A DNA stretch of 42,519 nt from a virus. Shown in pieces: positions 18,195 through 33,469 of the stretch (within the stretch, counting starts at the first letter, position 1; every line of letters starts with the position of its first letter). The stretch lies in IMG/VR virus record IMGVR_UViG_3300028392_000118, positions 1-42,519 of that record. One strand, written 5' to 3'. The position numbers and the translations under genes are program-made. A model generated the notes under the pieces. That model was not told where the DNA came from and ran no database searches. It saw nothing but the letters and a program-made list of their open reading frames with translations.

Positions 18195-18224
18195 TGTTGG
18201 CGCTCCCATGAAGTTTCGCCAACA
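18195..18224 (-). other. 5'-terminal mRNA hairpin of the SNF2-operon transcript
   Basis: A perfect 8-bp inverted repeat, TGTTGGCG and CGCCAACA, with a 14-nt loop. Its outer base at 18224 is the 7th base after the -10 box, so the predicted transcript starts with the stem. Four other leftward promoters show the same arrangement. Confidence 0.6.
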
Positions 18225-18230
18225 TTAACT

Positions 18231-18258
18231 ATTGTATGGGTGCTTTTGAAAATGTCAA
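18231..18258 (-). promoter_or_regulatory. Sigma70 promoter for the SNF2/primase operon
   Basis: On the minus strand TTGACA (18258-18253) is followed after 16 nt by TACAAT (18236-18231). This is a full -35 match and a 5/6 -10 match. It lies just downstream of the HNH-like gene stop, in the longest gap of the leftward block, and points at the SNF2 gene 370 nt away. Confidence 0.75.
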
Positions 18259-18277
18259 GTATTGAAATGAAAATATT

Positions 18278-18598
18278 TTATGAGGGTTTGCGAGTACGCT
18301 TCTCACTTTTACTAATTTCAGAAATTAGATTGCCTTTAGAGTCTCTCTTGAACGAACGATTCTCATGCGCTGATTGAATGCGTAGTCCATCTTTGTTTGA
18401 TCCACCCTTGTCTAGTGCAACAACATGTGCAACATCTTTGCCCTTGCGCGCGGGAGATTCTTTAGTGACTGTTCCTGTATCACGCTTATCAATACTACGG
18501 CGTGCGCGCTGACGCTCGTCACGGCGTTCTCTCTCACCGCGCTCTAGTTGTTGCTGATATTCTTTTTTGTATGGCCTTGGCTTATTGACATAGGGCAT
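18278..18598 (-). CDS. HNH-like small basic protein (106 aa)
   Basis: A very basic N-terminal half (KPYKKEYQQQ, then RRDERQRARRS) precedes AHVVALDKGGSNKDGL and SAHENRSFKRD (about residues 58-86). This is the HNH pattern: an H-V/D-x-P/A-L...GG.N core followed by N-R, although the canonical first DHIxP pair is seen as AHVVAL, so catalysis is uncertain. Similar small proteins are common in phage replication and packaging modules. It starts directly after the stop of the RecB-like nuclease gene, with an AAGGAGA ribosome-binding site inside that gene's last codons. Confidence 0.7.
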   Translation of the reverse strand: MPYVNKPRPYKKEYQQQLERGERERRDERQRARRSIDKRDTGTVTKESPARKGKDVAHVVALDKGGSNKDGLRIQSAHENRSFKRDSKGNLISEISKSEKRTRKPS

Positions 18599-19258
18599 TT
18601 ATCTCTCCTTATGAAACTCACATGTTCTGACTGGACACCACCCACACAAACCGCTTGGATTAGCTTGCCATGTATCATTCTCATACGATACAGACATGCG
18701 CATCAAGTCAGGTTCAAAGTCGTTCCACAATTCATCTTTGTCTTCAACTTTGTATTCTTCGGTGATGAACTGCTTGTGTGCAACAAACAATAATCCACCA
18801 TCAACTACTGTAATCTGGGGGAAGTGTTCAAACACCATGAGTGCCATCAACTGCAACTGTTTGGGGTCTGCGTACTTGATCTTACCTGTCTTGTAATCAA
18901 CAATAAAAGCATGTGTGCCTTGTATTACCAGCAAGTCAGCAATACCCCTCACCCATACATTCTTATCCATAAACCCGCATGGTTCTCTGTCAAATGTCAG
19001 ACCCATCCGATACTCAGGATACTTGACCCCATCCATCACGCGTAAGGGTTCTAACTGCGCGCCATAGTGTTCGTAGTTAGACGGCAAAGACGTATTATCT
19101 TTAACGTAATCCTCAAGCGCCTTATGTACTTTGTTTCCATAAGACATTTCCGCAGTCATTTGCTTTGGGTATTCTTTGGAAACGTGAATGGCGTTGTACT
19201 GTTTGGGACAATTGATATAGTCCTTGAGCTTAGAGTATGACCATTTGAGATTTTCCAT
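18599..19258 (-). CDS. PD-(D/E)XK nuclease, RecB/Cas4-like exonuclease (219 aa)
   Basis: Motifs in order: WSYSKLKDYINCPKQY at the start (N-terminal Cys), GNKVHKALEDY (motif I His), GIADLL (motif II Asp), IVDYKTGK (motif III, D...K), QLQLMALM (motif IV, Q-x3-Y-like), and C-terminal CGWCPVRTC. The Cys arrangement, one near the N-terminus and three near the C-terminus, is typical of Cas4/AddB-type Fe-S nucleases. Probable role: processing DNA ends for recombination or replication. It lies between DNA polymerase and the HNH-like protein. The start has a poor ribosome-binding site. Confidence 0.88.
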   Translation of the reverse strand: MENLKWSYSKLKDYINCPKQYNAIHVSKEYPKQMTAEMSYGNKVHKALEDYVKDNTSLPSNYEHYGAQLEPLRVMDGVKYPEYRMGLTFDREPCGFMDKNVWVRGIADLLVIQGTHAFIVDYKTGKIKYADPKQLQLMALMVFEHFPQITVVDGGLLFVAHKQFITEEYKVEDKDELWNDFEPDLMRMSVSYENDTWQANPSGLCGWCPVRTCEFHKER

Positions 19259-19294
19259 GACTGTATTGAACCAAAGTTAAGATGCGTAATCTTA

Positions 19295-21163
19295 TCAGCA
19301 ATCGCCGTAAGATGCACCTACTTTTGCTTCGCATGCTACTGGTAAACCCTTCGCCCACGATGGCGCGGTAGACATGATGCCAGTTATATAACTCAATGCC
19401 TCCTCGACCTCATCCTCGGGTACGATCACAACGGCAGCGTCATGGACTGTCAATGCTATAGGATACTTATTGTTGATCTCGACCATTTGAGTACCCACGA
19501 TTATGCGCGCCAATGCCTGAACAATGTTCTCCACAACTGCCCCGCCCCATAGGGAAATAGTACCCCTACGAGAGTCATAAACAGTCTTAGTCTTGCCATC
19601 CATCTCTTCTCTTCTAAGATTTGTATAGCGTATTTGTAAAGTATTGGGCAATATAATACCCTCTCTGTCAAAGCAAACGCATTCGTGCTCACCAAAATAA
19701 AGCGTTTTAGTAAACTTTGAGTTCATCATTTGATTCAACATCCGATCTGCCTCGCTCCATAGATCGGTTATCTTGTTGTTGGTCTGTCGATAGACACTAA
19801 CTATTCGCTCGGACTCTACCGAATCAATCTTTACGCTGACTGGCTGGGATGTGGATAATGTGTGCTGTAATTTGTTTGCGCCAGTCCCGTAGCCTAAACC
19901 CAGAATGCAAGTCTTTCCTACGAAACGCTCAATTGGGTCAGCTTTACTGATTGTTCTTTCATAAACAGTAGATGCGAATGCAGAGTAAACGTCTTCTCCA
20001 TCAGCAAATTGCTTGACGACTGAATCCTGACCAGCTAGCCACGCGAGCACCCTAGCCTCGATCTGAGACGAATCGCAGTTGACAATCTTGTAACCCTCGG
20101 GGGGCACAATGGCATTCTTCAATGCTTTCTTGTTCGGGTCACGGCTTGGCAAATTTTGAAAGTTAATCTTGTCTGTCCCACTCCATCGGCCTGTATGTGC
20201 GCCATAATATTTTAATGGGATAGGTACAAGGTCGTTGTGTCTCTTGCCCACCTCAATGAACCGCTCAAGTCGTTTCTCTTCCAAGGTAGACTTTGTGCCT
20301 AGTCTGACTGCACATAGGTGCTGAATAGCAATATCCTCATGCTCAAGTAGGGCTAAGAACCCTTCATCCTTTTTAGCCAACGCCCACGTTTCTTTGCCAG
20401 TTGTTGGGCTGACTTTCTTGGGCGCATCGATGCCCAATGTCTTTAACGCCTCGGCGAACTTGGCATTGCTAGAGAGTTTCTTACGCACTTCCTCCTCATT
20501 GGCGCACTCCAGGTAGCTCATGAGAGAACGCAATAGTCTATTCTTTTCTTCAACCAAGTTGGTAAGCCTCTCCCGTAGCACAGACTGGTCAAGGTACAAC
20601 ATGGGATGGGTGAACATGCGCAGAGTAATGTCTATAAGGTGTAATTCCTCTACTGGAAAACCCTGAGACATAATATTGAATAGCTTGTACGTCAGCGCAA
20701 CGTCATTCTTACAGTACGCGCCGTATTGCGCCAAGTCTTCAGGCAAGAAATCCAATCGGGTCTTTCCGATAGCATCATTAACTTCCGTGCCTTTAACACC
20801 TATCTGATATCTTTCAGATAGCTTGGCCAACGATCCACCCACCTCGACACCATGCAATGCTCTCGCCATGCAGAGGGTATCGCCATAAATCATGGGCGTG
20901 ATGTTGAATATCCAATGGAGGACTGCTCCATCGAACATAGTATTGTGAGCGATAAGCATGCTGTTCTTCCAGTCATACTTGCGCAAGAACTTTCTTATAT
21001 CATCGTGCGTGCCTGAGAACCAGACTGGCTCTCCATCGTCCACTTGAACGGCAACGCCAATAACTTCAAAGCGTTTATCGCGTACATACTCCTCGGTCGT
21101 TAGCTTGTTAAAGCCAAAGTCCTTGGAGTAGTACGTCTCAAAGTCAATTGTAATTAAACTCAT
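19295..21163 (-). CDS. DNA polymerase, family A, with 3'-5' exonuclease domain (622 aa)
   Basis: The N-terminal exonuclease domain has DFETY (residues 6-10, ExoI), AHNTMFDGAVL (ExoII) and YCKNDVALTYKLF (ExoIII). Polymerase motif A is NCDSSQIEARVLAWLAG (about 360), motif B is KTCILGLGYGTGANK (about 418) and motif C is TVHDAAVVIVPE (about 570). All catalytic residues appear present. At 622 residues it is a compact phage replicase without the 5' nuclease domain. It starts with an ATGA overlap with the zinc-ribbon gene. It is the main replicative polymerase of this phage. Confidence 0.95.
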   Translation of the reverse strand: MSLITIDFETYYSKDFGFNKLTTEEYVRDKRFEVIGVAVQVDDGEPVWFSGTHDDIRKFLRKYDWKNSMLIAHNTMFDGAVLHWIFNITPMIYGDTLCMARALHGVEVGGSLAKLSERYQIGVKGTEVNDAIGKTRLDFLPEDLAQYGAYCKNDVALTYKLFNIMSQGFPVEELHLIDITLRMFTHPMLYLDQSVLRERLTNLVEEKNRLLRSLMSYLECANEEEVRKKLSSNAKFAEALKTLGIDAPKKVSPTTGKETWALAKKDEGFLALLEHEDIAIQHLCAVRLGTKSTLEEKRLERFIEVGKRHNDLVPIPLKYYGAHTGRWSGTDKINFQNLPSRDPNKKALKNAIVPPEGYKIVNCDSSQIEARVLAWLAGQDSVVKQFADGEDVYSAFASTVYERTISKADPIERFVGKTCILGLGYGTGANKLQHTLSTSQPVSVKIDSVESERIVSVYRQTNNKITDLWSEADRMLNQMMNSKFTKTLYFGEHECVCFDREGIILPNTLQIRYTNLRREEMDGKTKTVYDSRRGTISLWGGAVVENIVQALARIIVGTQMVEINNKYPIALTVHDAAVVIVPEDEVEEALSYITGIMSTAPSWAKGLPVACEAKVGASYGDC

Positions 21164-21333
21164 TTAAGCCGTTTTCCATTTTCTTTCTCCTTGGGTTTAA
21201 TCATACTGATTATCACTTCACGCGTTCTGAATCTATGTTCGTTGGCACATTCTCGCCTTCGTGTCACATGATTCTTATCAGTCGCTCTTGTTTCTAATAC
21301 CACTGTCCATGTTCCACACTCAGGACATCTCAT
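21160..21333 (-). CDS. Tiny NrdR-like zinc-ribbon protein (57 aa)
   Basis: The protein starts MRCPECGTWTVVLETRA and continues with RRRECANEHRFRTREVI, ending Lys/Glu-rich. The order CPxCG, V-x-x-(S/T)R, RRREC, RF-T-E is that of the zinc-ribbon domain that begins the ribonucleotide reductase repressor NrdR, but the ATP-cone domain is missing and the fourth metal ligand is His (ECANEH) instead of Cys. It could bind DNA, or be a decoy or a polymerase accessory. A GGAGAA ribosome-binding site precedes the ATG. It overlaps the next gene (DNA polymerase) by ATGA and the previous gene by ATGA. Confidence 0.75.
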   Translation of the reverse strand: MRCPECGTWTVVLETRATDKNHVTRRRECANEHRFRTREVIISMIKPKEKENGKRLK

Positions 21334-21506
21334 TTCTTCTCCGATAATGCACGCTCAAGGCGTTTCATTAACACATCTATGTCCTCACGCATCTTAGCGC
21401 AATTAGGACAATCCTTAGTATGGTCGCGCCAACGCGCTTCTTTGGTAAGTTGTGTCTCTTTGCATCTTGATGCGATGCGCTCAAACTCTTCGTCTTCTTC
21501 ATTCAT
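21330..21506 (-). CDS. Small Cys-containing protein (58 aa)
   Basis: The protein begins MNEEDEEFERIASRCK and contains DCPNCAKMREDIDVLMKR, ending ALSEKK. The CPNC knuckle plus the earlier Cys suggests a small metal site, and the last third is a charged helix. Start and stop overlap neighbours (ATGA with the zinc-ribbon gene at 21330-21333). Function unknown. The reading frame's fit in a chain of ATGA-linked genes is the main support. Confidence 0.6.
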   Translation of the reverse strand: MNEEDEEFERIASRCKETQLTKEARWRDHTKDCPNCAKMREDIDVLMKRLERALSEKK

Positions 21507-21606
21507 CGCTCATCTCCTGTATAAACAACCATACAAGTACAGCAGTGTAAATGGCAACGGCTATGATACCTCCAAATGCCAATGCCCAAATTAATGCGTC
21601 AGTCAT
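21499..21606 (-). CDS. Single-pass membrane micro-protein (35 aa)
   Basis: About 23 hydrophobic residues (LIWALAFGGIIAVAIYTAVL and neighbours) follow a short MTDA start and are followed by FIQEMSDE, consistent with one transmembrane helix with a negatively charged tail. It has a strong TTGGAGGG ribosome-binding site before the ATG and overlaps both neighbours (ATGA at its start, 8 nt at its end). Role unknown. A holin-like or membrane regulatory role is possible but unsupported by lysis-gene context. Confidence 0.6.
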   Translation of the reverse strand: MTDALIWALAFGGIIAVAIYTAVLVWLFIQEMSDE

Positions 21607-21776
21607 AACACCCTCCAATTAATCAGCCAACATTTGATAGACCCCCAGAATGTTTGTTTAAATAGTTGAATTTCTAGTTTGTTTATACGCTCCTTCAGCT
21701 CATAGTTTTCCAATAACAATTCACTGTTATGCATAGACATCATGTTCCATGCTTTTTGTATGTCTTTATCATTCAT
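21603..21776 (-). CDS. Small helical protein (57 aa)
   Basis: A charged amphipathic helix (SELLLENYELKERINKLEIQL) is followed by an aromatic/hydrophobic end (TFWGSIKCWLINW), which could be a coiled coil with a membrane-associated tail. It has a good AAGGAGC ribosome-binding site 7 nt before the ATG, in a leader identical to that of the next upstream gene. It overlaps the 35-aa gene by ATGA. Unknown function. Confidence 0.55.
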   Translation of the reverse strand: MNDKDIQKAWNMMSMHNSELLLENYELKERINKLEIQLFKQTFWGSIKCWLINWRVL

Positions 21777-21788
21777 GTGTTGCGCTCC

Positions 21789-22247
21789 TTATTTAAGTGC
21801 GGTAGAAATTTTATTAAGTTTGCCTTCTTTTTCTAACTCAGCGAGAGTCGACATGGCTGTTGCCGCCCTCTCCAACAAAGATACATATCGCTCTAAATTG
21901 GCAAAGTTTGCAGTTTTCTCAACTTTGGATAACCCTGCGGCTAGGTCATCTGCGGCTTTGCGCACATTGCCTGATACTTTTTTAATATTGTTTTGCAATT
22001 CTTCTGTGGTCTCCATCAAATTACTTGCATTACGTTTAAATATTTTCTCTGCAGACACCGCTATCTCTGAAGCTTTTTCATAATCTGTTGAAATCATTTT
22101 TGCTTTCCTTGTTAAATATGTTCCTGACTCGGTCACCAATTCAGATGCTATTGCCGTAGTTATTCTTTGAACGCTCCATCCTGGCCCGTTACGATCTATC
22201 ACGTCTGGTTTTGTAGTTAAAAAATGTTTAGTAACTCCTATCTTCAT
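21789..22247 (-). CDS. Helical coiled-coil protein (152 aa), unknown function
   Basis: Residues 1-50 are a mixed domain (GVTKHFLTTKP, RNGPGWSVQRITTAIASELV). From about residue 52 the protein is one long Ala/Glu/Lys-rich heptad-like helix (KASEIAVSAEKIF, ETTEELQNNIKKVSG, LAAGLSKVEKT), resembling the cytoplasmic helices of chemoreceptors or tail-fibre trimer stems. No catalytic motif. It has a GAAGGAGC ribosome-binding site and overlaps the upstream gene by ATGA. Confidence 0.6.
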   Translation of the reverse strand: MKIGVTKHFLTTKPDVIDRNGPGWSVQRITTAIASELVTESGTYLTRKAKMISTDYEKASEIAVSAEKIFKRNASNLMETTEELQNNIKKVSGNVRKAADDLAAGLSKVEKTANFANLERYVSLLERAATAMSTLAELEKEGKLNKISTALK

Positions 22248-22483
22248 GTGTTGCGCTCCTTCAGCTTGGCTTCAATGTCTTTTGCAAAGTCATGCACCCA
22301 AGCTCCATAAACAATACGCCATTCATCACATATTGGCTTTAAATCTTCCTCTGTCAGTCCTACCCATTCCTTCTTGCAGAAACCACCATAGTTAGAACAC
22401 AGTTCGCTTTGCTCTATCTGTCTCTTGCGCCAAGAGTTTTCCAACGCCTTCAATGCAAGGCGTAATGCTTCGTCTTTAGTCAT
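22244..22483 (-). CDS. Small phage protein (79 aa)
   Basis: It begins MTKDEALRLALKALENSW, a start shared by many small phage proteins I recall. Two Cys (SELCSNYGGFC) and a Trp-rich middle follow, then a charged helix to KERNT. Unknown function. It overlaps the next gene by ATGA and the previous by 8 nt. Confidence 0.6.
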   Translation of the reverse strand: MTKDEALRLALKALENSWRKRQIEQSELCSNYGGFCKKEWVGLTEEDLKPICDEWRIVYGAWVHDFAKDIEAKLKERNT

Positions 22484-22640
22484 TCTTGTCCCCTTCCATC
22501 TCCCTCAGCATATTGCTCAGAGCAAACATTTTCTTTGTGGTTTCCATCTGTTGTTTGTGCAGTTGATTCATTGCCTCTGATAAGGCTTTGTTTGCACCAT
22601 ACAACTCAATAATCTCTTCTTTAATTTCTTCTTTAGTCAT
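22476..22640 (-). CDS. Small coiled-coil protein (54 aa)
   Basis: Almost fully helical by composition: MTKEEIKEEIIELYGANKAL, then SEAMNQLHKQQMETTKKMF. A Lys/Glu-rich coiled coil, probably an oligomeric accessory. Its ATG overlaps the upstream stop (ATGA at 22637-22640) and its stop overlaps the downstream start by 8 nt. It has a GGGGACA ribosome-binding site. Unknown function. Confidence 0.6.
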   Translation of the reverse strand: MTKEEIKEEIIELYGANKALSEAMNQLHKQQMETTKKMFALSNMLREMEGDKND

Positions 22641-22843
22641 TCTTGTCCCCTTTCTTTTATCATTGCATCTGCATATTGATAAGCCTTACCACCCACAAAC
22701 TCAAGAGTTGTTGTAAATCTATTGTCTTCTCTGCCAATAATTGCTTGCATAGCCTTAGCCGCAAAATAGTCCCGCAAAGTCATACCTTGGAATGGTTCGC
22801 CCCATCCATTGAAACCTTCGTTCGGAAATGCTGGTTCATTCAT
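22637..22843 (-). CDS. Small conserved phage protein with MTLRDYFAAKAMQ motif (68 aa)
   Basis: The segment EPFQGMTLRDYFAAKAMQAII is one of the most widespread small-protein signatures of phages and prophages, typically followed by an Ala-rich Y-x-x-ADAMI-x-x-R helix, as here (KAYQYADAMIKERG). The molecular function is not established to my knowledge. It is linked to both neighbours by ATGA. Confidence 0.75.
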   Translation of the reverse strand: MNEPAFPNEGFNGWGEPFQGMTLRDYFAAKAMQAIIGREDNRFTTTLEFVGGKAYQYADAMIKERGQE

Positions 22844-23061
22844 TTTTGTCCCCTTGCTCGGATTTTGTCCGCAATGATTTCAGAGTAATTACGTTCCAAC
22901 CCATTTGCGTATGCTTCTGCAATCTTTGCACACGCCTCACGTTCTTTTGCTTCAACTGCATTAGCAACTCTCAGCCAAGCATTATCGGGAAGCCAATTCT
23001 CAATACCACCTTCATGTAAATCCATGTCGGTCATCAATTGCATTAGTTCTTGATTAGTCAT
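22840..23061 (-). CDS. Small phage protein with EREACAKIAE motif (73 aa)
   Basis: Contains AVEAKEREACAKIAEAYAN, a frequent motif of short phage proteins of unknown function, and ends with ADKIRARGQK. The N-terminal part (LMQLMTDMDLHEGG) is a separate helix. It overlaps the downstream gene by ATGA and follows the winged-helix gene by 1 nt. Confidence 0.65.
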   Translation of the reverse strand: MTNQELMQLMTDMDLHEGGIENWLPDNAWLRVANAVEAKEREACAKIAEAYANGLERNYSEIIADKIRARGQK

Positions 23062-23062
23062 G

Positions 23063-23338
23063 CTACGCCCCTACGAATTTATATCCTCGGGATGTTCCGA
23101 ACAGATACTTAGTGCGGTTATCAACCAAGAACTCTATCTTGATGTACTTATTATCTATTAGCCATTTGAGCGCACGATGACTTGTGGCGGGGGACGCTAC
23201 GTTGATCTCATATGCTTGTTCTACCAAGTCCGTTATTGATACGCCTTTGCCGTAGCTAACTATTAGATCAAGTAATAGTTCAGCGACCACGCTCATACCT
23301 TTTCTCTCACGTTTCATATGTAATTTAATTGCTTGCAT
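23063..23338 (-). CDS. Winged helix-turn-helix DNA-binding protein (91 aa)
   Basis: The order is helix (AELLLDLIVSYG), then VSITDLVEQAYEIN, recognition helix SPATSHRALKWLIDNKYI, and a beta-wing, KIEFLVDNRTKYLFGTSRGYKFV. This is the layout of a single-domain MarR/ArsR-like winged helix with the wing ending at the C-terminus. It is likely a transcription regulator of phage or host genes, possibly of early genes. It has an AAGGTGGTG ribosome-binding site. Confidence 0.75.
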   Translation of the reverse strand: MQAIKLHMKRERKGMSVVAELLLDLIVSYGKGVSITDLVEQAYEINVASPATSHRALKWLIDNKYIKIEFLVDNRTKYLFGTSRGYKFVGA

Positions 23339-23486
23339 GTTTCACCACCTTTTTATTTAGAAGCCAGTTATCTCCAACAACCCTGATCGCGCGAACCCAC
23401 GCACGCATGTTGTGCCTTTGCTGAAAGTATGGTGATGTATCAATACACCACAACTTACGCGCTTTCTTTAACATTGAAATATCCAT
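23325..23486 (-). CDS. Small basic protein (53 aa)
   Basis: The protein starts MDISMLKKARKLWCID and continues with RHNMRAWVRAIRVVGDNWLL, ending HASN. It is basic and Trp-rich (KKARKLW, RAWVRAIR, NWLL), a composition common in small phage proteins that bind nucleic acid or host enzymes. It has a strong AAAGGAGAAGG ribosome-binding site. It overlaps the nuclease gene upstream by 32 nt and the winged-helix gene downstream by 14 nt, in different frames. I recall similar short proteins in related phages, but no function. Confidence 0.55.
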   Translation of the reverse strand: MDISMLKKARKLWCIDTSPYFQQRHNMRAWVRAIRVVGDNWLLNKKVVKHASN

Positions 23487-23775
23487 TCACCTTCTCCTTT
23501 AAAATTTCGTAAAGATTATCTATGTTGTGCTCATCAACGATGAATGCAATACCCCCATTCATATTTATTTCTTTGATATGTGACTCTTGCAGTCGTGTGG
23601 GTTTATTGCCGTTGGCCTTGCACTCTAGACCAATGAAGACACCCCTATAACAAACGAGAATGTCGGGCACTCCTGAGTTACCAAATCCGCTTGTTATAGG
23701 GAATGTATAGTACGCGCCGAGTCTAGCTAGTGCTAGTTTCGCCTTGTTCTTGATCTTGCTTTCGGGCGTTGCCAT
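23455..23775 (-). CDS. VRR-NUC-like PD-(D/E)XK nuclease (106 aa)
   Basis: ITSGFGNSGVPDILVCYRG (about 26-45), then FIGLECKANGNKPTRLQ (about 47-63), then GGIAFIVDE. This is the VRR-NUC signature: G-x-PD, the E-x-K triad and the KPT-x-x-Q helix. These domains are structure-specific or Holliday-junction nucleases. The phage probably uses it to resolve branched DNA before packaging. It overlaps the preceding unknown gene by 53 nt. Confidence 0.85.
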   Translation of the reverse strand: MATPESKIKNKAKLALARLGAYYTFPITSGFGNSGVPDILVCYRGVFIGLECKANGNKPTRLQESHIKEINMNGGIAFIVDEHNIDNLYEILKEKVNGYFNVKESA

Positions 23776-25062: not shown

Positions 25063-25074
25063 TTGCATTCTCCT

Positions 25075-25947: not shown

Positions 25948-25959
25948 TTGCTTACCCTT

Positions 25960-27245: not shown

Positions 27246-27253
27246 GTACTGCA

Positions 27254-28321
27254 TTACATTATCTTGTGGTTATTGGTAGCCCAAGTAGTGATCGCTTGGT
27301 TATAGCGAGCAATCTTGGGGCGAGTGTGCATGATCATCGTGAAGAAGATCGATTGAATCTCAGCGTTCTTGATACGATTCACGAACTGCATGTACTCATT
27401 GAGATCATCTTGCGTCTCGATGTTATCGACTGCTTCAAACATCATCATGATCAGAGCAGACACATCATCAGGAACTTTCACAGTTGATGCGTTCTTCATC
27501 ACATCTTTGAACGACATGAGCTTACCCTCAAGGGAGATGAACGCAGACATTGACCGCGCACCCGCTTCACCGATCGTGCCCGCCAAGCCTACCATCAGAG
27601 CATTCTCTGTGACCTTATCTTTCCTATCGACTATGACCGATGCTTTAGCTAGCGAACGTGGAGACACGAACTGTTTGGCAGTCGATGACGGATTGAAGAT
27701 GTACTCATTGTCCTTCTGATCAGGATCAAGATAGGACTTGAACGCCTTGGGATTCATGGATGCCCATGCCCTTACCGCTCTAGCAATCTTGTTGTTGGTT
27801 GCCCATACATTCCATTCTGTGTGGTTTGGTTTGCGCATATTGATCACAGTCACACGATTGCCCGCATGAGCTAGCATGTTGTCACCTACGCCATCAGATG
27901 AGTTGTTACTTGTTGCAAACAAGTATGATCCCTCGGGGAGTGGAACATCGCCCACAGTTCTCTCAAGCATTAGTCTAGTGAAGATGATCTGTAAGAGCTT
28001 GGGAGCTTTCATAAACTCATCGAGCATGATGACCTTCTTACGACCATTGTTGATCTTGAACAGATCGGACACATAATACTCAAGAGACTTGCTCTCATGA
28101 TTGGGGATACTAGCCGCGACATCCATCATATCTTTAACAGGACAATCGACATAGATGTAATCATAGTCATCGCCCATCTCATCTTCAAGACTCTTCAGTA
28201 TCGTAGACTTGCCGACCCCAGGCTCGGACACCACGACAGGCGTAATTTGATCAGCCATTGCCTTGATGAAGTCTTTGGTCTCATCGATGGACATTGTAAG
28301 GGAGAAATTGATTTTAGACAT
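27254..28321 (-). CDS. MoxR-like AAA+ ATPase (355 aa)
   Basis: Walker A EPGVGKST (residues 33-40), Walker B VIMLDEF (97-103), sensor 1 LFATSNN (134-140) and an Arg-rich helical C-terminal region. The short 355-residue length, and the neighbouring DUF2201/VWA protein, place it in the MoxR group (CobS- and NorQ-like) rather than among replication clamp loaders. It is expected to form a ring that hydrolyses ATP to remodel a target selected by the VWA partner. It precedes the DUF2201 gene by about 100 nt, a stretch holding the possible 30-aa ORF. Its own ribosome-binding site is weak. Confidence 0.87.
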   Translation of the reverse strand: MSKINFSLTMSIDETKDFIKAMADQITPVVVSEPGVGKSTILKSLEDEMGDDYDYIYVDCPVKDMMDVAASIPNHESKSLEYYVSDLFKINNGRKKVIMLDEFMKAPKLLQIIFTRLMLERTVGDVPLPEGSYLFATSNNSSDGVGDNMLAHAGNRVTVINMRKPNHTEWNVWATNNKIARAVRAWASMNPKAFKSYLDPDQKDNEYIFNPSSTAKQFVSPRSLAKASVIVDRKDKVTENALMVGLAGTIGEAGARSMSAFISLEGKLMSFKDVMKNASTVKVPDDVSALIMMMFEAVDNIETQDDLNEYMQFVNRIKNAEIQSIFFTMIMHTRPKIARYNQAITTWATNNHKIM

Positions 28322-28339
28322 TTTGCATTTACTTTCAGG

Positions 28340-29248
28340 TTAGTTAAAGGATTTAAACGGAGCGAACTTGGACAAGATGTCATCGACATCATTCTTGACC
28401 ACACTACGAACATATGAACTCTCACGCAGATCATCCACAGTTACATCGCGCAACGCTTGCTCAAGACGTTGGCGAGCATTCTCTAGCTCTTGGTTGTTTG
28501 TAAGATTAAACTCTTTCAAGGTTGTGCATATCTCCTTTGCTTGGGTTACAGTTGTATCATAGATTTTCTTACGCTTGACCTTGCCGTCTTCATCAGGTGT
28601 ATTCTCAGTACACGCATTACTGATGCGAGACGCAATCTCCAAGAACCGCTCGCTTGCATCGACCATCACGTTATCAATGATCTCTGCAACTTGCCGTTCA
28701 TAGTGATTCTTTAAGTCATCGGCAATGACCGATGAGATGTTTGACCTGAAGTCGTTTTGGGGCACAGTTGTTACAAACAACTTTATGCGGAACTTGGAAC
28801 GCACAACACCAGAGTCAGGGTATTGACTTCTATCAAACATATCTCCTTGCTTAAAAGCCGCATCGCTCACGATCTGCGGATACTTGTAGATGAACTCATC
28901 GAGCAGTCGATTGAACTCGCGATCATGCGCTTCAAACTCTTTCATGAATTTCTCAAGGTTAACAAGTGGCAACAAACGACTAGACCCCGACCAGTCATAG
29001 GTCGACCGCTGAAGCCAGTTATATATCGTCTGACGATAATTCATGAGAGATTTGTGCTCGGGCGAACTGGAGAGCAAGTTCTTGGTGAACTTACCCGCTT
29101 CAGAGTCAGCGTTCTTCATGGACGTGACCTCGTTTGAGATCGCACGATCTTGCTTGGTTGCAGTCCACACATTGACTTCTACTGAGACAATATGTGCAGA
29201 GGTTGCAAGGGATATGATTTGTTTGGGTTGTTGCAATTCAAAATTCAT
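28340..29248 (-). CDS. DUF3150-like protein, partner of the MoxR cassette (302 aa)
   Basis: Mostly helical. The N-terminal region reads IVSVEVNVWTATKQDRAISNEVT, then LMNYRQTIYNWLQRSTYDWSG with RLLPLVNLEKF, and the C-terminus is a charged helix bundle. This pattern (VNVWTATK, small-residue middle, coiled C-terminus) resembles DUF3150, a family I recall near cobS/MoxR-type ATPases and VWA genes in phages and mobile elements. It is first in the three-gene cassette DUF3150-like, MoxR, DUF2201. It has an ATAGGATAAAC ribosome-binding site. The family assignment is by recollection, without a search. Confidence 0.6.
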   Translation of the reverse strand: MNFELQQPKQIISLATSAHIVSVEVNVWTATKQDRAISNEVTSMKNADSEAGKFTKNLLSSSPEHKSLMNYRQTIYNWLQRSTYDWSGSSRLLPLVNLEKFMKEFEAHDREFNRLLDEFIYKYPQIVSDAAFKQGDMFDRSQYPDSGVVRSKFRIKLFVTTVPQNDFRSNISSVIADDLKNHYERQVAEIIDNVMVDASERFLEIASRISNACTENTPDEDGKVKRKKIYDTTVTQAKEICTTLKEFNLTNNQELENARQRLEQALRDVTVDDLRESSYVRSVVKNDVDDILSKFAPFKSFN

Positions 29249-29283
29249 GATGTTTATCCTATGTGATTGTTCCGATTGATTGA

Positions 29284-29511
29284 TTAGTGCTTGGTCTCTT
29301 CAGCGTAGTCTTCCATGAGCGCATCCCACAATGCCCCACACGCTTTGGTGTAAGTCTCTTTGCTCATGCCCAGTTCAATGCACACACCACAGTAAAAGCG
29401 AGCAAGTACCATCTGTACAACTCTCATATCATTGTCGTGTAGGACATCTCCGACTTGTTCTGTAAGTTTCTCGGCTTGCGCTTTGATCTCTTTGATTTCA
29501 TTAGCGTTCAT
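29284..29511 (-). CDS. Small helical protein (75 aa)
   Basis: MNANEIKEIKAQAEKLTEQVG at the start is a charged amphipathic helix. The middle (VVQMVLARFYCGVCIELGM) holds two Cys, and the end is acidic (MEDYAEETKH). No function recognised. Start linked to the zinc-ribbon gene by ATGA (29508-29511), with a GGGGGG-rich ribosome-binding site. Confidence 0.6.
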   Translation of the reverse strand: MNANEIKEIKAQAEKLTEQVGDVLHDNDMRVVQMVLARFYCGVCIELGMSKETYTKACGALWDALMEDYAEETKH

Positions 29512-29723
29512 TGGTGATACCCCCCTTTGTTGTTAATACCTTTTAAGTCTTCACGATTTGTGACGACCATGTAGTTGCTCTTGTGCATAGGCACGATTGT
29601 GTGCTTGCGTGTACGCGCGTCTTCCTCCCCGCACCACAGGCAAATGTGGTAACCCGCATTGGCTCGCTTTGGGGAGAACGTGTCACCACACCGCACACAC
29701 ATGGGTTTCATGCGTTGTGTCAT
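29508..29723 (-). CDS. Phage zinc-ribbon protein with C-terminal HKSNYM motif (71 aa)
   Basis: The start is placed at MTQRMKPMCVRCG, since the residues before it are overlapped by the upstream gene. MCVRCGDTFSPKRANAGYHICLWCG is a classical zinc ribbon (CxxC...CxxCG) followed by ARTRKHTIVPMHKSNYMVVT cut across the middle. This zinc ribbon plus HKSNYM block is one I recall from many aquatic phages. Function unknown; nucleic-acid or protein binding is likely. Confidence 0.7.
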   Translation of the reverse strand: MTQRMKPMCVRCGDTFSPKRANAGYHICLWCGEEDARTRKHTIVPMHKSNYMVVTNREDLKGINNKGGYHQ

Positions 29724-29725
29724 GC

Positions 29726-29965
29726 TTAGTCCAGTCTGTGGGTTGAAAGGTTGAATGTGTGAACGGCATAGTCCGAACAACTACCTAACTCGTCTACATC
29801 ACCTTGGATGCAGAGGTGCATCTCGTACTCAGCGGTCATGCGGTCAACGTACACACCGACTGGGCGTTCGTTGCATGTGAGTACATGAACCTTGGGCTTG
29901 AGCGCCTCGATCGCTTGCCGATCGTGTTCGTTACTGTCGATTAATAAACTCTTAATACGTCCCAT
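29726..29965 (-). CDS. Small protein with possible nucleic-acid-related role (79 aa)
   Basis: Starts MGRIKSLLIDSNEHDRQAI with an AAGGAG ribosome-binding site 5 nt upstream; the 21 residues before it are excluded on that ground. The middle has VHVLTCNERPVGVYVDRMTAEYEMHLC with two Cys, ending HTFNLSTHRLD. No family recognised. It is the first gene after the promoter near 30053 and a palindromic operator (29990-30005), so it leads the long leftward transcript. Confidence 0.6.
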   Translation of the reverse strand: MGRIKSLLIDSNEHDRQAIEALKPKVHVLTCNERPVGVYVDRMTAEYEMHLCIQGDVDELGSCSDYAVHTFNLSTHRLD

Positions 29966-29989
29966 GATAACTCCTTGTAACTGAATGAA

Positions 29990-30005
29990 ATCGGAATGTT
30001 CCGAT
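29990..30005. promoter_or_regulatory. Palindromic operator, copy 1 (ATCGGAATGTTCCGAT)
   Basis: A 16-bp element with 7-bp arms in the 5' leader of the 79-aa gene, between its start and the upstream promoter. It matches three other intergenic copies that share the form ATCGGA-NN-GTTCCGAT. Likely a binding site for a phage or host regulator. Confidence 0.75.
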
Positions 30006-30020
30006 AGACTAAATAGAACC

Positions 30021-30081
30021 ATAGGCAAGAAACTCTTCCGACCTATGAATACATTGTACCATAACTTGACACATAACGCAA
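30021..30081 (-). promoter_or_regulatory. Leftward promoter with 5'-terminal hairpin (before the 79-aa gene)
   Basis: Minus-strand TTGCGT (30081-30076), 17-nt spacer, TG extension, and TACAAT (30058-30053). The block GTGTCAAGTTATGG lies directly upstream of the -10 box. CATAGG/CCTATG (30047-30042 with 30025-30020) form a stem whose outer end is 5 nt (6 nt for the inner ATAGG/CCTAT stem) downstream of the -10 box, at or near +1. Confidence 0.7.
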
Positions 30082-30099
30082 TATGGTTAGAGAAAATAC

Positions 30100-30276
30100 T
30101 TAGTCAAAGTGATGGCTAACATCCTCTGTGTTGACAACTTCTTCCCATGCGTTGAGATAGCCTTCAGAGAAACCTATCACCCACAGTTGGCGTACCGCAT
30201 CGGATATGTCCTGTTCGTTGTTCTCACGCGCCCACTGCTCATAGGCTTGTTGTGCTTTCTTCATAATGTCGTTCAT
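30100..30276 (-). CDS. Small acidic protein (58 aa)
   Basis: MNDIMKKAQQAYEQWAREN at the start, then VRQLWVIGFSEGYLNAWEEV, ending EDVSHHFD. Helical and acidic. It has an AAAGGAAC ribosome-binding site identical to that of the next upstream gene. No family recognised. It lies immediately after the promoter area near 30053 but is transcribed from the farther upstream one. Confidence 0.6.
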   Translation of the reverse strand: MNDIMKKAQQAYEQWARENNEQDISDAVRQLWVIGFSEGYLNAWEEVVNTEDVSHHFD

Positions 30277-30297
30277 AATAGTTCCTTTGTTGTTTGT

Positions 30298-30549
30298 TTA
30301 ATCGTTCTCTGCACCAACGTAGCACCCTGCGAAATAGTGCGTATGACCAAACGCTCGTATAAAACCTACTGGTAGTCTTCTGTTTCTTTTCCCTGAAAAA
30401 CGCTCAAGCTCAAGCTCATACTTGTACGCATATACAGAGGATCGTTTCAAGTCTCGCTTGTATGGTTTTAATGATTTGACCATGTATGTTTGTGCTGATT
30501 GCATACTGTTCAGTAATGGGCGTGTGGCAGAGAATTTATGATGTCTCAT
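30298..30549 (-). CDS. Small basic protein (83 aa)
   Basis: Begins MRHHKFSATRPLL and has VKSLKPYKRDLKRSSVYAYKY, then RKRNRRLPVG in variant spelling (SGKRNRRLPVG), ending CYVGAEND. Strongly basic, so nucleic-acid binding is possible. Leader CAAAGGAACTATT is the same as for the 58-aa gene downstream. Unknown function. Confidence 0.6.
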   Translation of the reverse strand: MRHHKFSATRPLLNSMQSAQTYMVKSLKPYKRDLKRSSVYAYKYELELERFSGKRNRRLPVGFIRAFGHTHYFAGCYVGAEND

Positions 30550-30570
30550 AATAGTTCCTTTGTTAATTGT

Positions 30571-30897
30571 TTATAGGTTACCGCATTCTAATTCGCAGAG
30601 ATACGCATTTTGCATCTCATCGTCCTCGTCTTCAATTTGTCCATCGGGTGAGTCCGATAGAGTAAGTAAAGCATAGTCATTGTCGATGTCGTTAAACTCA
30701 TCGATGCAGAAGTCAGGGTCGCATACGTTGGTGCGGTAGTATGTTGCATCGCCATCGAACGACTCAAGAGAATCGAACCCTGTGATGATGCGATCTACTG
30801 AATGATGCGTTGCGTTGTTGAACGCATAACGCTTGGGTGTTGTGATGCGCTTTGCTTTGCGCACAGAACGTGGATAGTGGGATAGAGTTGCTTGCAT
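30571..30897 (-). CDS. Basic-to-acidic small protein (108 aa)
   Basis: The N-terminal part is basic (HYPRSVRKAKRITTPKRYAF) and the C-terminal half very acidic (DEFNDIDNDYALLTLSD, EDEDDEMQ). This charge split could allow both DNA mimicry-like and nucleic-acid contacts, but this is inference. It has a GAAAGGCC ribosome-binding site. It is the first gene downstream of the promoter near 30977 and the operator copy 30915-30930. Confidence 0.6.
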   Translation of the reverse strand: MQATLSHYPRSVRKAKRITTPKRYAFNNATHHSVDRIITGFDSLESFDGDATYYRTNVCDPDFCIDEFNDIDNDYALLTLSDSPDGQIEDEDDEMQNAYLCELECGNL

Positions 30898-30914
30898 GAT
30901 TGGCCTTTCTTGTT

Positions 30915-30930
30915 ATCGGATGGTTCCGAT
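30915..30930. promoter_or_regulatory. Palindromic operator, copy 2 (ATCGGATGGTTCCGAT)
   Basis: A 16-bp near-palindrome in the 5' leader between the promoter near 30977 and the 108-aa gene. It shares ATCGGA and GTTCCGAT with the copies at 29990, 31549 and 32448. Confidence 0.72.
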
Positions 30931-30944
30931 TGGTTATTTAAAAT

Positions 30945-31005
30945 ATAGGGCGAAAACTCTCTCGACCTATGAATACAGTATACCATAACTTTACACTTAT
31001 TGGAA
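30945..31005 (-). promoter_or_regulatory. Leftward promoter with 5'-terminal hairpin (before the 108-aa gene)
   Basis: Minus-strand extended -10 TGGTATACT (TATACT at 30982-30977). GTGTAAAGTTATGG lies directly upstream; a weak TTCCAA sits at -35 (31005-31000). ATAGG/CCTAT (30945-30949 with 30966-30970) form a hairpin whose outer base is 6 nt downstream of the -10 box. The downstream leader GTATTCATAGGTCG is identical to the promoter near 30053. Confidence 0.68.
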
Positions 31006-31009
31006 GGGG

Positions 31010-31038
31010 TTTATACATGTTTTTTACCGAAGTGTCAA
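31010..31038 (-). promoter_or_regulatory. Canonical leftward sigma70 promoter near the origin
   Basis: Minus-strand TTGACA (31038-31033), 17-nt spacer, TATAAA (31015-31010): a full -35 match, 5/6 -10 match and ideal spacing. It sits at the left flank of the iteron region and lies about 30 nt upstream of the extended -10 promoter. It could drive the early genes or make a priming/regulatory transcript at the origin. No flush hairpin is seen here. Confidence 0.65.
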
Positions 31039-31230
31039 GTTAGGCCGTTTTTTTTGGAATCTGGAATAAAAAACTGGAATATTGGAATGTACTACTAATA
31101 GGTTACTAAAACAGGTTAAAAAGGGGGTTTTTCTTTGTTTTTTATATAAAATAATAATACTAATATATTATATATTTTAGTAGATTCTAATATTCCAGTG
31201 TTTTTAAAAGAGCGGGGACTTGCAGAGGGT

Positions 31231-31239
31231 TGTGGATAA
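31231..31239 (-). other. DnaA box 1 (TTATCCACA)
   Basis: A perfect 9/9 match to the E. coli DnaA box in the context AAAAAGTTATCCACAACC (minus strand). It lies exactly 30 bp (about three helical turns) from an identically oriented box. Confidence 0.85.
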
Positions 31240-31260
31240 CTTTTTGAAAAAGGGGTAAAT

Positions 31261-31269
31261 TGTGGATAA
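31261..31269 (-). other. DnaA box 2 (TTATCCACA)
   Basis: A second perfect 9/9 match, same orientation as box 1, in the context AAAAGTTATCCACAA. Spacing of 30 bp places both boxes on one helical face, as needed for cooperative DnaA binding. Confidence 0.85.
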
Positions 31270-31548
31270 CTTTTGCACTCAAAAAAAGAGTCTTGCAAAC
31301 ACAAGATGCTCTCAACCAGCCGTATCCGAAAAAACCACTGGAATCTTGGAATCTTGGAATCTTGACCTACTTTTTCCTTATAAATCAACAACTTAGTAAG
31401 TTCCAGTTTTGCGCGACTGGTTGGAATCTTTGCGTTGCGGATTGGAATTTGCTAATTAGACTTCTTCTAAGCAAACGGGAAAAAGAACTCTGTTCCAAGA
31501 TTCCAAAACACGATTCCAAGATTCCAGTCGTGTTGGAATATTGGAATT

Positions 31549-31564
31549 ATCGGAAGGTTCCGAT
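31549..31564. promoter_or_regulatory. Palindromic operator, copy 3 (ATCGGAAGGTTCCGAT)
   Basis: A perfect 7-bp-armed copy of the recurring element at the right edge of the origin region. On the minus strand it is followed, at the same distance where copy 4 has TATAAT, by a degenerate TATTCC, so a decayed promoter may lie here. Confidence 0.72.
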
Positions 31565-31640
31565 AAGATAATTAACTCTGACGCGCAAACACATTCGCTT
31601 GCTCACACGCGCGACGACATATAACTGGTCTCAAAAGGCC
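31549..31640. repeat. Duplicated intergenic module, copy A
   Basis: A module of operator, TAATTAACTC and, after a divergent GC-rich segment, CGCGCGACGACATATAAC with TGGTCTCAAAAGGCC. Copy B (32448-32543) has the same order of elements and nearly the same spacing. Both precede an intrinsic terminator of a leftward gene. The conserved blocks suggest a functional unit that was duplicated. Confidence 0.7.
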
Positions 31641-31646
31641 GAGGCC

Positions 31647-31678
31647 AAAAAAAACCCCTGACCATTTCTGATCAGGGG
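31647..31678 (-). terminator. Intrinsic terminator after the 222-aa gene
   Basis: On the minus strand CCCCTGA and TCAGGGG form a 7-bp stem around a 10-nt loop, followed directly by eight T. It lies 16 nt downstream of the 222-aa gene stop and would insulate the origin region from that transcript. Confidence 0.9.
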
Positions 31679-31693
31679 TAAGTACTTAGCTAA

Positions 31694-32362
31694 TTACTTT
31701 TTCGTGTAGACCTTGAAGAATGCTTCTTTCGCCATTCTATACATCACGGGATCGGCTGTTAGATCATTACGCGTTGATAGTAATTTGACCTTAGCGTCCA
31801 TGCCCTTATTTTTCTTACCGTCACCATTAAAGAAAACTTCCAATGTTTCCCTGAAATTTTTATTGGCTTTTCTTTCTGTGGGTGTACCCTGATTTTTTAT
31901 TTTCTTAGCACAATCTACCAATGCTTTAATACAATCTGATTTATAACCCGCCCAATGCTTTTTCATTACCTCTACAATTCTACGTTTTGCCGGATCATTT
32001 TTATTTAGATCTTTATAGTCACTTGCAGACAATGAATTTACATAGTCAATTGTCAATTCTATGGTGTAGGCTTTCTCTGGTACTTTAGCTACTTGATCCA
32101 ATGGCACATAGAATTTAACTCCATCAACAGGGTTAGTGGTTAAATAATAAGATACCTTACCGTTTTTACTTTCCCTATATTTTCTCTGAAAACCGATTGT
32201 CAATTGAGCGCGGGTATCATCTGAAACTGTCTCAGGGAAACTGGGGTCTTTTTCCATTAAGAGAGTAGCATTCTCATAATTACCCTCAATATTATCGGCT
32301 GTTTTATAACCAATATCGGCCAAAGAAATAGATAGTTCAGTCTTTTTTAGCTTTGCATTCAT
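31694..32362 (-). CDS. Unrecognised early protein (222 aa)
   Basis: Begins MNAKLKKTELSISLADIGY. It has two predicted beta-rich segments (SYYLTTNPVDGVKFYVPLDQV, YTIELTIDYVNSL) and a helical Lys-rich C-terminal part with KKHWAGYKSDCIKALVDCA. No known catalytic pattern. Monocistronic: its own promoter (near 32434) with flush hairpin and operator upstream, a strong terminator downstream. Its isolation and position beside the origin suggest an early take-over or origin-related protein, possibly the iteron binder, but this is only inference. Confidence 0.6.
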   Translation of the reverse strand: MNAKLKKTELSISLADIGYKTADNIEGNYENATLLMEKDPSFPETVSDDTRAQLTIGFQRKYRESKNGKVSYYLTTNPVDGVKFYVPLDQVAKVPEKAYTIELTIDYVNSLSASDYKDLNKNDPAKRRIVEVMKKHWAGYKSDCIKALVDCAKKIKNQGTPTERKANKNFRETLEVFFNGDGKKNKGMDAKVKLLSTRNDLTADPVMYRMAKEAFFKVYTKK

Positions 32363-32404
32363 TTTAAATACTCCATTAAATTGTTAAAAGTTAAGAACAT
32401 TAAA

Positions 32405-32439
32405 ACACCACTACGATGAGATGGTGTAAGAGAATTATA
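32405..32439 (-). promoter_or_regulatory. Leftward promoter with 5'-terminal hairpin (before the 222-aa gene)
   Basis: Minus-strand TGTTATAAT gives an extended, perfect -10 (TATAAT at 32439-32434). The -35 position is occupied by the palindromic operator (32448-32463). ACACCA/TGGTGT (32405-32410 with 32422-32427) form a stem whose outer base is 6 nt downstream of the -10 box. Confidence 0.7.
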
Positions 32440-32447
32440 ACACAACT

Positions 32448-32463
32448 ATCGGATCGTTCCGAT
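32448..32463. promoter_or_regulatory. Palindromic operator, copy 4 (ATCGGATCGTTCCGAT)
   Basis: Lies 8 nt upstream of the -10 box of the 222-aa gene promoter and so overlaps the -35 position. A protein bound here would block or replace the -35 contact. It shares ATCGGA and GTTCCGAT with three other copies. Confidence 0.75.
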
Positions 32464-32543
32464 CTGTTAATTAACTCACGGGTCACGCACGCCCATCCAC
32501 ACACGCATCTACGCGCGGCGACACATAACTGGTATCAAAGGCC
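32448..32543. repeat. Duplicated intergenic module, copy B
   Basis: Same element order as copy A: operator, TAATTAACTC, a divergent GC-rich middle, then CGCGCGGCGACACATAAC with TGGTATCAAAGGCC. It lies between the terminator of the 95-aa gene and the promoter of the 222-aa gene. The two GC-rich middles differ strongly, so only the flanking blocks are conserved. Confidence 0.7.
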
Positions 32544-32547
32544 ATAA

Positions 32548-32585
32548 GGCAAAAATAAAAGGGGAGCTTTTGGCTCCCCTTTTTG
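32548..32585. terminator. Bidirectional intrinsic terminator after the 95-aa gene
   Basis: GGGGAGC and GCTCCCC form a 7-bp stem with a 5-nt loop, with A-rich sequence on the left and T5 on the right, so both strands have a T-run. On the minus strand it follows the 95-aa gene stop directly. Confidence 0.9.
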
Positions 32586-32873
32586 TTAGATCGTACGGCT
32601 ACCTAGTTGCCAACCGCATTCATGAAACTGTTCGTCAGTAGACAGATCCAATTCCTGTTGGGGATTCCAGTACTTATTAATCATTGCCTCTGCAGGGTAA
32701 CCTTGTATACCTTGCATTGTCAACCCAAGCCGTACTAGGTGTTTTGATGTTCTACCACAATCCATTTTTAAGATTGTCACAACCCTGTTGAATTGCTTTG
32801 CGCCCAACCATTCCTTGCAATCATTGATTGCGTCTTCTGCTGTCTTGCTAGAGTAATCGATTTCGTAATGCAT
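32586..32873 (-). CDS. Small early protein (95 aa), unknown function
   Basis: MHYEIDYSSKTAEDAINDCKEW at the start, then AKQFNRVVTILKMDCGRTSKH, and QQELDLSTDEQFHECGW. Three Cys and mixed alpha/beta composition, no recognised motif. It starts just after the terminator of the 149-aa gene and has an AAGGAG ribosome-binding site. It probably depends on read-through of that terminator or on an unseen promoter in the gene upstream. Confidence 0.6.
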   Translation of the reverse strand: MHYEIDYSSKTAEDAINDCKEWLGAKQFNRVVTILKMDCGRTSKHLVRLGLTMQGIQGYPAEAMINKYWNPQQELDLSTDEQFHECGWQLGSRTI

Positions 32874-32889
32874 AATTTTCTCCTTAGTT

Positions 32890-32919
32890 AAAAAAGACAG
32901 GGGACTGTCACTCCCCTGT
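32890..32919 (-). terminator. Intrinsic terminator between the 149-aa and 95-aa genes
   Basis: On the minus strand ACAGGGG and CCCCTGT form a 7-bp stem with a 9-nt loop, followed by CTTTTTT. It lies directly after the 149-aa gene stop. Confidence 0.9.
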
Positions 32920-32926
32920 TGACTTG

Positions 32927-33376
32927 TTAGTCGCAGACTATTTCGTATTTTTCAACAGTCCGTAGCTCCGAACCAACTACCACTTTACGGCATGTTGGGC
33001 TGTCGTCTCTCACATAGGCGCTTACTGTCACCGAGTGAGTACTAGAAGTAAACCTGTAATCCCTGTTGAGGGATTGAGGCCAATCTTCGCTTTTCATGTT
33101 ATCCATTGTCTCAGATAGATAACCTAAGACATTTGCTAACCTATCGTCCTTGAAGGACTCTAGGTTATACATACCGATGTAAATATGAGGCTGGTTATTA
33201 GAAACCATTAAATACATACGCTCGCTTGAAAGGGTTACCTTCTCAAGTGCTCTAAGCACTTTGCCGATCGGTTTGCGATTGGTCTTGATAACATTCAACT
33301 GCGCAGTGGCGGATTCCACTGATCGCTTTGCATCTGCCAAACCCGATGCGAAGGCCATAGTTGCTTTGCTTTGCAT
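32927..33376 (-). CDS. Early protein (149 aa), unknown function
   Basis: An N-terminal helix (MQSKATMAFASGLADAKRSV) precedes alpha/beta segments (KVTLSSERMYLMVSNN, PHIYIGMYNLESF) and a C-terminal half with repeated short strands (THSVTVSAYVRDDS). No known motif. It is the rightmost leftward gene, nearest the divergent late promoter, and has its own promoter (near 33442) and terminator. Such first-expressed genes often modify the host, but this is inference only. Confidence 0.6.
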   Translation of the reverse strand: MQSKATMAFASGLADAKRSVESATAQLNVIKTNRKPIGKVLRALEKVTLSSERMYLMVSNNQPHIYIGMYNLESFKDDRLANVLGYLSETMDNMKSEDWPQSLNRDYRFTSSTHSVTVSAYVRDDSPTCRKVVVGSELRTVEKYEIVCD

Positions 33377-33410
33377 AGCATTTCCTTAACTGTGTTAATG
33401 ATCTCTACCG

Positions 33411-33460
33411 CACCACTGCAGGATCGCTGTGGTGTGAGTGTATTATAGCGTAACTTGACA
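33411..33460 (-). promoter_or_regulatory. Leftward promoter with 5'-terminal hairpin (before the 149-aa gene)
   Basis: Minus-strand perfect TATAAT (33447-33442) with GTGTCAAGTTACGC directly upstream, the same block seen near 30058 and 30982. No good -35 is present. CACCAC/GTGGTG (33411-33416 with 33429-33434) form a stem whose outer base is 7 nt downstream of the -10 box, with a G-U pair extending it by one. Confidence 0.7.
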
Positions 33461-33469
33461 CTTTCTGCT

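Follow-up and report, generated by a model that had tools for sequence, protein, structure and literature searches.

Hairpins at the predicted 5′ ends of early transcripts and two pseudoknotted leader RNAs in a lineage of aquatic phages

The window analyzed here, i.e. the whole stretch of 42,519 nucleotides of a 42.5 kb virus record, contains a podovirus-like gene set with a terminase (34256–35776), a portal and a major head protein (41431–42342), together with genes for an A-family DNA polymerase, a helicase, a primase and an exonuclease. Five of its leftward promoters are each followed by an inverted repeat that begins at, or close to, the predicted first transcribed base. The question raised by this arrangement is whether the repeats are due to chance, are sites in DNA, or are RNA structures kept by selection and, in the last case, what such structures could do for the phage. 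DNA similarity searches of named phages gave no match to the window, nor to the helicase leader and the late leader considered below. Relatives were collected via the terminase and the ATPase. By terminase, the closest named phages were DSL-LC04 (53%) and the pelagiphages HTVC023P and HTVC027P (48–49%). The ATPase and HNH gene pair of the window is also present in N4-like phages.

Position and folding of the start-site hairpins

The five stems reported by the first-pass annotation were all found, on the (−) strand, and the gap from the −10 box to the stem, said to be of 5–7 nt, measured 6, 5, 6, 6 and 7 nt for P1 to P5, respectively. The P1 hairpin (18195–18224; TGTTGGCG/CGCCAACA, 8 bp) is flush at the predicted +1 of a promoter with TTGACA as −35 (18258–18253) and TACAAT as −10 (18236–18231), the junction being TACAAT-agttaa-TGTTGGCG. 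The P2 hairpin (30020–30047; CATAGG/CCTATG with an inner GGAA/TTCT) follows a −10 TACAAT (30058–30053) extended by TGG, and the end of its stem is 54 nt from the ATG (29965). The P3 hairpin (30945–30970; ATAGG/CCTAT with an inner CGAGA/TTTCG) follows a −10 TATACT (30982–30977) and precedes a gene at 30571–30897. The P4 hairpin (32405–32427; ACACCA/TGGTGT) follows a −10 TATAAT (32439–32434), ahead of a gene at 31694–32362. Finally, the P5 hairpin (33411–33434; CACCAC/GTGGTG, an A-A mismatch, GC/GC and the hexaloop GATCCT) follows a −10 TATAAT (33447–33442), ahead of a gene at 32927–33376. In P2–P5 the start codon is located 34–54 nt past the end of the stem, which leaves the ribosome-binding site free.

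The five promoters had been taken as independent, and this part of the earlier claim has to be corrected. P2 and P3 are paralogous copies with a common AAGTTATGGTA..TGTATTCATAGGTCG, so that there are about four lineages rather than five independent cases, and P1 forms part of a larger leader RNA. P1 is also the only one of the five with a strong −35 (TTGACA) and the only one that passed a strict consensus promoter scan; therefore, such a scan alone misses P2–P5, which are promoters with an extended −10 (P2 and P3) or a weak −35. P2, P3 and P5 have in common a GTGTMAAGTTA spacer directly 5′ of the −10 box (regions 30053–30080, 30977–31000 and 33442–33465, (−) strand), which is kept in relatives, replaces a normal −35 and is perhaps an activator site. 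A count of a mismatch-tolerant promoter pattern in 12 relatives was barely above the reversed control and was discarded.

The P5 operon has another hairpin between two of its genes (32897–32919, (−)), directly after a stop codon and just 5′ of the next Shine-Dalgarno, which is kept with other letters in four relatives (L084, L112, L115 and L117). It could be a terminator, or it could cap the 5′ end of a processed mRNA.

The first 31–37 nt of each leader were compared with 200 dinucleotide shuffles. All five folded better than shuffled sequence, with z-scores of −3.20, −3.25, −3.39, −2.62 and −2.10 for P1 to P5 (that is, from −2.1 to −3.4), and the shuffles that folded as well as the native sequence were 3, 1, 0, 4 and 6, respectively. 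One could still argue that short stems turn up often around any promoter and that the cases had been selected by the reader, since arms of 5–6 bp are individually weak and the z-score of P5 is only −2.1. As such arms are weak evidence when taken alone, the decision rests on a test across the phage family.

This test was run on 163 deduplicated, intergenic, sigma70-like promoters from the window and its relatives, 87 of which had a hairpin below −7 kcal/mol within −30 to +70 of the −10 box. The starts of the best hairpins peaked at 5, 6 and 7 nt past the −10 box, with 7, 8 and 9 of the 87, respectively, against about 1 per position elsewhere. A z-score below −2 at +1 was obtained for 21% of the 163 promoters, while the control offsets gave 6, 8 and 4%, and sites inside reading frames gave 10% at +1. 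The same position stood out in a less strictly deduplicated set of 166 intergenic candidates scanned with 32-nt windows, where the mean folding energy dipped to −5.4 at offset +4 past the −10 box, compared to about −2.0 to −3.0 upstream and, mostly, −2.9 to −3.6 downstream; a second, smaller dip occurred at +36 to +40. In lambda, N4 and P22 there was no peak at 5–7 nt, and 1 of 14 hairpins was found at 3–9 nt, which is about chance, this control being small (28 promoters). So, judged on the family statistics, flush hairpins exceed chance, and the positional peak, the control phages and the compensatory changes described next make a chance origin extremely unlikely.

Pairing conserved with different letters

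The P5 leaders were aligned without using structure (alignment A1, n = 9). With the stem of the window imposed on this alignment, 91.1% of the cells were paired, compared to at most 52% with slid versions of the stem. Three pairs had changes on both sides, amounting to 6 such cells versus 2.0 in shuffled data, and the covariation score was 0.241 versus 0.134, with 0 of 500 shuffles reaching as high a value. Among orthologues of the P5 gene with 32–67% protein identity (L138–L152), most have, as judged by eye, a hairpin of unrelated letters just past the −10 box. The orthologues of P2, P3 and P4 resemble those of P5 in that the hairpin is kept while its letters are changed; a MAFFT alignment of the P4 set had its loops misaligned and was left out of the evidence.

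Concerning the nature of the selected molecule, the transcribed strand of the +1 hairpin folded better than its complement in 38 promoters versus 20 (Wilcoxon p 0.0096), while none of four other offsets showed a bias in that direction. Besides, 59 of the 485 pairs of the first hairpins were G-U. A sense-strand bias restricted to +1, together with the G-U pairs, is what indicates selection on RNA rather than on DNA, and the evidence thus points to RNA as the selected molecule at +1. The proposal of selection on RNA pairing, made from the five stems of one genome, has in this way been borne out by compensatory changes, unlike stems in orthologues, the positional peak and the strand bias.

The alternative that the inverted repeats are DNA operators, with a repressor acting on the start site, would account for their location at +1, and a second palindrome, repeated in the genome, does look operator-like. 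However, in the first hairpins the half-sites are not the same from one promoter to the next in a given genome, the total length varies from 23 to 30 bp, and the frequent G-U pairs and the better folding of the sense strand fit poorly with a duplex DNA site. For the first hairpin, a DNA operator is largely refuted by its unlike half-sites, G-U pairs and strand asymmetry, and we consider it very unlikely.

The second palindrome, ATCGGA-N4-TCCGAT, is a different matter. On the (−) strand it occurs downstream of P2 (29990–30005, with ACAT as its centre and the AU-rich CTATTTAGTC just before), downstream of P3 (30915–30930, with ACCA, after TTTAAATAACC) and upstream of P4 (32448–32463, with ACGA, after TTAATTAACAG), and there is a further copy at 31549–31564. 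The copies are always in one orientation, each after an AU-rich TTAAWTA-like stretch. The half-site is constant within one genome and different in other phages, the centre is free, and no strand bias in folding was observed. One half-site throughout, as in DNA operators of a single repressor, is thus found in the second palindrome and not in the first hairpins. From its letters, the second palindrome resembles a DNA operator, a second promoter class or a processing site being also candidates.

Two side observations can be added. The (−) strand encodes at 23063–23338 a 91-aa protein that, by eye, has a winged-helix DNA-binding look, and it is a candidate regulator acting on the palindromes. In addition, no gene is obvious in the roughly 650 nt of 31040–31690, which contain repeats of TTGGAATCTTGGAATC and two DnaA-box-like TGTGGATAA, both perfect (31231–31239 and 31261–31269), and are likely a replication origin.

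Leader RNAs of the helicase gene and of the late region

The transcript predicted to start at P1 contains a helicase leader RNA (17867–18040, (−)), 5′ of the helicase gene (16290–17858). Its parts are a stem H1 (CGGTC/GATCG), a loop pseudoknot (GYRUG/CRYRU) and a long hairpin (GATAGTC..GACTATC). The leader was also located in relatives (loci L281–L305). In an alignment of 20 genomes (A3), which covered the first stem and the loop pseudoknot, 90.3% of the cells were paired, compared to at most 43% in slid versions, and changes on both sides were found in 11 of 12 pairs, amounting to 54 cells versus 18.6 shuffled. A further hairpin of this leader, TCAGTTAGTC...GACTAAC, shows covariation by eye.

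The first stem of the helicase leader is itself 4–7 nt past a good −10 box in ten genomes. In the window, the P1 hairpin and the conserved leader are separated by a segment (18041–18194, (−)) that most relatives lack. The displacement of the leader amounts here to about 184 nt, and the promoter displaced with respect to it carries a flush hairpin of its own, that of P1. The leader is displaced also in two other genomes, G027 and G028, and their sequences again read as a different hairpin at about +1 (ATTGAGAG..CTCTCAAT and CAAGA..TCTTG, respectively). The recurrence of a flush hairpin at displaced promoters is the most telling single fact in favor of a putative requirement at +1. There is an exception in eight records (six close relatives) with the first helicase-leader stem 10–15 nt past the −10 box, a spacing seen in the G016–G018 clade.

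The other leader belongs to the late region. It is located at 42396–42462 on the (+) strand, within 42379–42476, 3′ of the major head gene and a terminator, with a −10-like TATATT at 42381–42386, and it adjoins the Shine-Dalgarno of the next gene. Its predicted fold is a double pseudoknot in which helices A (42396–42400/42422–42426), B (42408–42416/42442–42450) and C (42434–42438/42458–42462) are interlaced, and the loop of hairpin D (42418–42420/42427–42429) pairs with the 5′ end. A pattern scan recovered at least 120 DNA stretches, of which at least 93 were distinct sequences after removal of near-copies, one of them (L239) being probably a chance match; the late leader is thus present in more than 90 distinct contigs. 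In alignment A4 (n = 36), 97.1% of the cells were paired in helices B, C and D, with 91 both-side cells versus 27.5 shuffled, and helix A was nearly invariant.

In DSL-LC04 and HTVC023P the late leader was located by shape only, and sequences with unrelated letters form all four pairings, A to D, with almost unchanged spacing (loci L311:26649-26715 and L312:26775-26843). A sequence-free descriptor gave one match in each of these phages, at the leader of the gene that follows the major capsid gene, and, among the matches listed, 69 in 67 of the 80 loci taken from the pattern scan. In controls run on both strands, there were 0 matches in 1.96 Mb of early-region loci and 0 in 0.28 Mb of lambda, N4 and P22. 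As the descriptor was written after seeing three examples, the two phage matches are illustrative, and the informative part is the zero background. HTVC027P and 023Pt_psg01 did not fit even a relaxed descriptor, which was set aside as it gave 10 chance matches in 0.28 Mb; in their homologous leaders, helices B and C are kept by eye, which was not counted as evidence.

Rfam 15 gave no match to the window and, even at relaxed E-values, no sensible match to the early leaders, the helicase leader or the late leader, and membership in a ribozyme or riboswitch family was discarded on this negative result.

Possible function and comparison with known systems

The best mechanism that can be offered for the stems, with a probability of about 0.5, is that they shield the 5′ end of the mRNA against RppH and RNase E, as in ompA and T7 gene 10. 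A host-type (sigma70) RNA polymerase would transcribe from the leftward phage promoters, and the nascent RNA would fold once its first 25–35 nt had emerged, so that the first 0–2 bases would then be at or beside a base-paired end. Such an end would deny the single-stranded 5′ terminus needed by RppH, for the removal of pyrophosphate, and by the 5′ pocket of RNase E, and the shielded mRNAs would live longer. The exact start sites are here those predicted from the promoters, and a pathway of RppH/RNase E type is presumed in the host. The 5′ ends on which RppH and RNase E work are single-stranded, and this is the reason why 5′ structure stabilizes mRNA (PMC3997798). The 5′ stem-loop of T7 gene 10, assayed in C. 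necator, stabilized mRNA and increased expression 1.5–3-fold (PMC6146998). With the starts as predicted, the geometry of the P1–P5 stems matches this known rule of stabilization by 5′ structure. The helicase and late pseudoknotted leaders probably add gene-specific control.

Some letters are conserved inside the hairpins: the 5′ arm of the P2/P3 type has GGUYGGGRA, and the hexaloops of the P4/P5 type are AAUNNN or GAUCCU, with GATCCT kept among P5 orthologues and AATCAG, AATCCC or AATTCG elsewhere. These letters would be unneeded for pure end-shielding and suggest that a protein binds there or that a tertiary contact is made. Hence the possibility that a phage or host RNA-binding protein recognizes the hairpins and controls when each early mRNA is translated or degraded, which would also suit the helicase and late leaders, whose folds are complex and have invariant cores. 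On the other hand, no single loop or motif is common to all the leaders of one genome, and the P2–P5 hairpins leave the ribosome-binding site uncovered. It seems reasonable to regard this possibility as unlikely, yet not negligible.

A different function, in the manner of HK022 put, would be that the 5′ hairpins attach to the elongation complex, which would then pause and terminate less in the early operons. HK022 put is likewise a folded RNA at the extreme 5′ end of an early transcript, the stems studied here are located immediately 3′ of early promoters, and several leftward terminator-like hairpins occur in the region. In HK022 putL, the first pair is at A3 and two stem-loops are contained in about 73 nt (PMC9378689). 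The P2 and P3 leaders bear two hairpins, as put has two stem-loops, but these are 13–15 nt apart rather than adjacent, P1, P4 and P5 are without a second hairpin right after the first, and none of P1–P5 has a pair of adjacent stem-loops within about 70 nt. Moreover, put copies are similar in sequence, whereas the stems of P1, P2/P3, P4 and P5 differ within one genome, and most of the short operons are each served by a promoter and a leader of their own. A strict put reading fails on copy similarity and on the adjacency of two stems, and we consider a put-like function distinctly unlikely.

Taken as a whole, we find it somewhat better supported than an even guess that 5′ ends of transcripts are folded as a rule in a widespread aquatic phage lineage extending to the abundant SAR11 phage HTVC023P, with simple early hairpins and two undescribed pseudoknotted leaders, one for the helicase gene and one for the gene that follows the major capsid gene. 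The phage-wide design originally proposed is supported, and is wider than claimed in that it includes these two leaders. The late leader occurs in HTVC023P, which is in culture, and in a group reported to comprise the most abundant pelagiphages known (PMC12753301). If the shielding of 5′ ends were true, the lineage would protect many mRNAs by means of cheap, fast-evolving 5′ structures, not by an inhibitor protein, and a stem 5–7 nt past a −10 box would provide a sequence rule to locate where transcription begins in phages not yet cultured. Both pseudoknotted leaders are candidate new RNA families, and as a cultured SAR11 phage carries one of them, it is directly testable.

The 5′-terminal stem-loop itself is a known kind of element. 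What appears to be new is its use at many promoters across a phage lineage, where selection on it shows in the sequence, and the fact that it accompanies two pseudoknotted leaders unmatched in Rfam. Searches of open-access papers gave no description, which falls short of a proof of novelty.

Concerning the late leader, the mRNA of T4 gene 32 has a translational-operator pseudoknot in its 5′ leader. Compared by architecture, both are 5′ leader pseudoknots ahead of a phage gene; the late leader differs in its interlaced A/B and B/C helices, in the pairing of the hairpin D loop with the 5′ end, and in that it adjoins the Shine-Dalgarno.

Concerning the early leaders, nut sites of the lambda type consist of a boxA and a boxB hairpin in the leader, with which the N protein acts. 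A likeness to lambda nut, or to the boxBAC of rrn leaders, is seen in some leaders where a hairpin is accompanied by an AU-rich or boxA-like stretch, e.g. the boxA-like TTCTTTAACA after the P4-type hairpin in the relatives L041 and L115. Unlike in those systems, the boxA-like stretch is present in some leaders only, and order and loops differ. There was no N-like gene among the proteins scanned, which included a minority of the small ORFs. A boxA/nut reading was not adopted, as boxA-like letters are missing from some leaders.

Among the rivals, HK022 putRNA has the closest architecture. The likeness to ompA and T7 gene 10 lies in a stem a few bases from the start (about 0–4 nt from the predicted one, with 5–7 nt past the −10 box as the family mode), in the conservation of pairing rather than sequence, and in a ribosome-binding site outside the stem (P2–P5). 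T7 is also a phage that places a 5′ stem on abundant mRNAs. Unlike ompA and T7 gene 10, the hairpins described here occur at many promoters per phage, of sigma70 type, throughout a lineage, and with a different stem on each.
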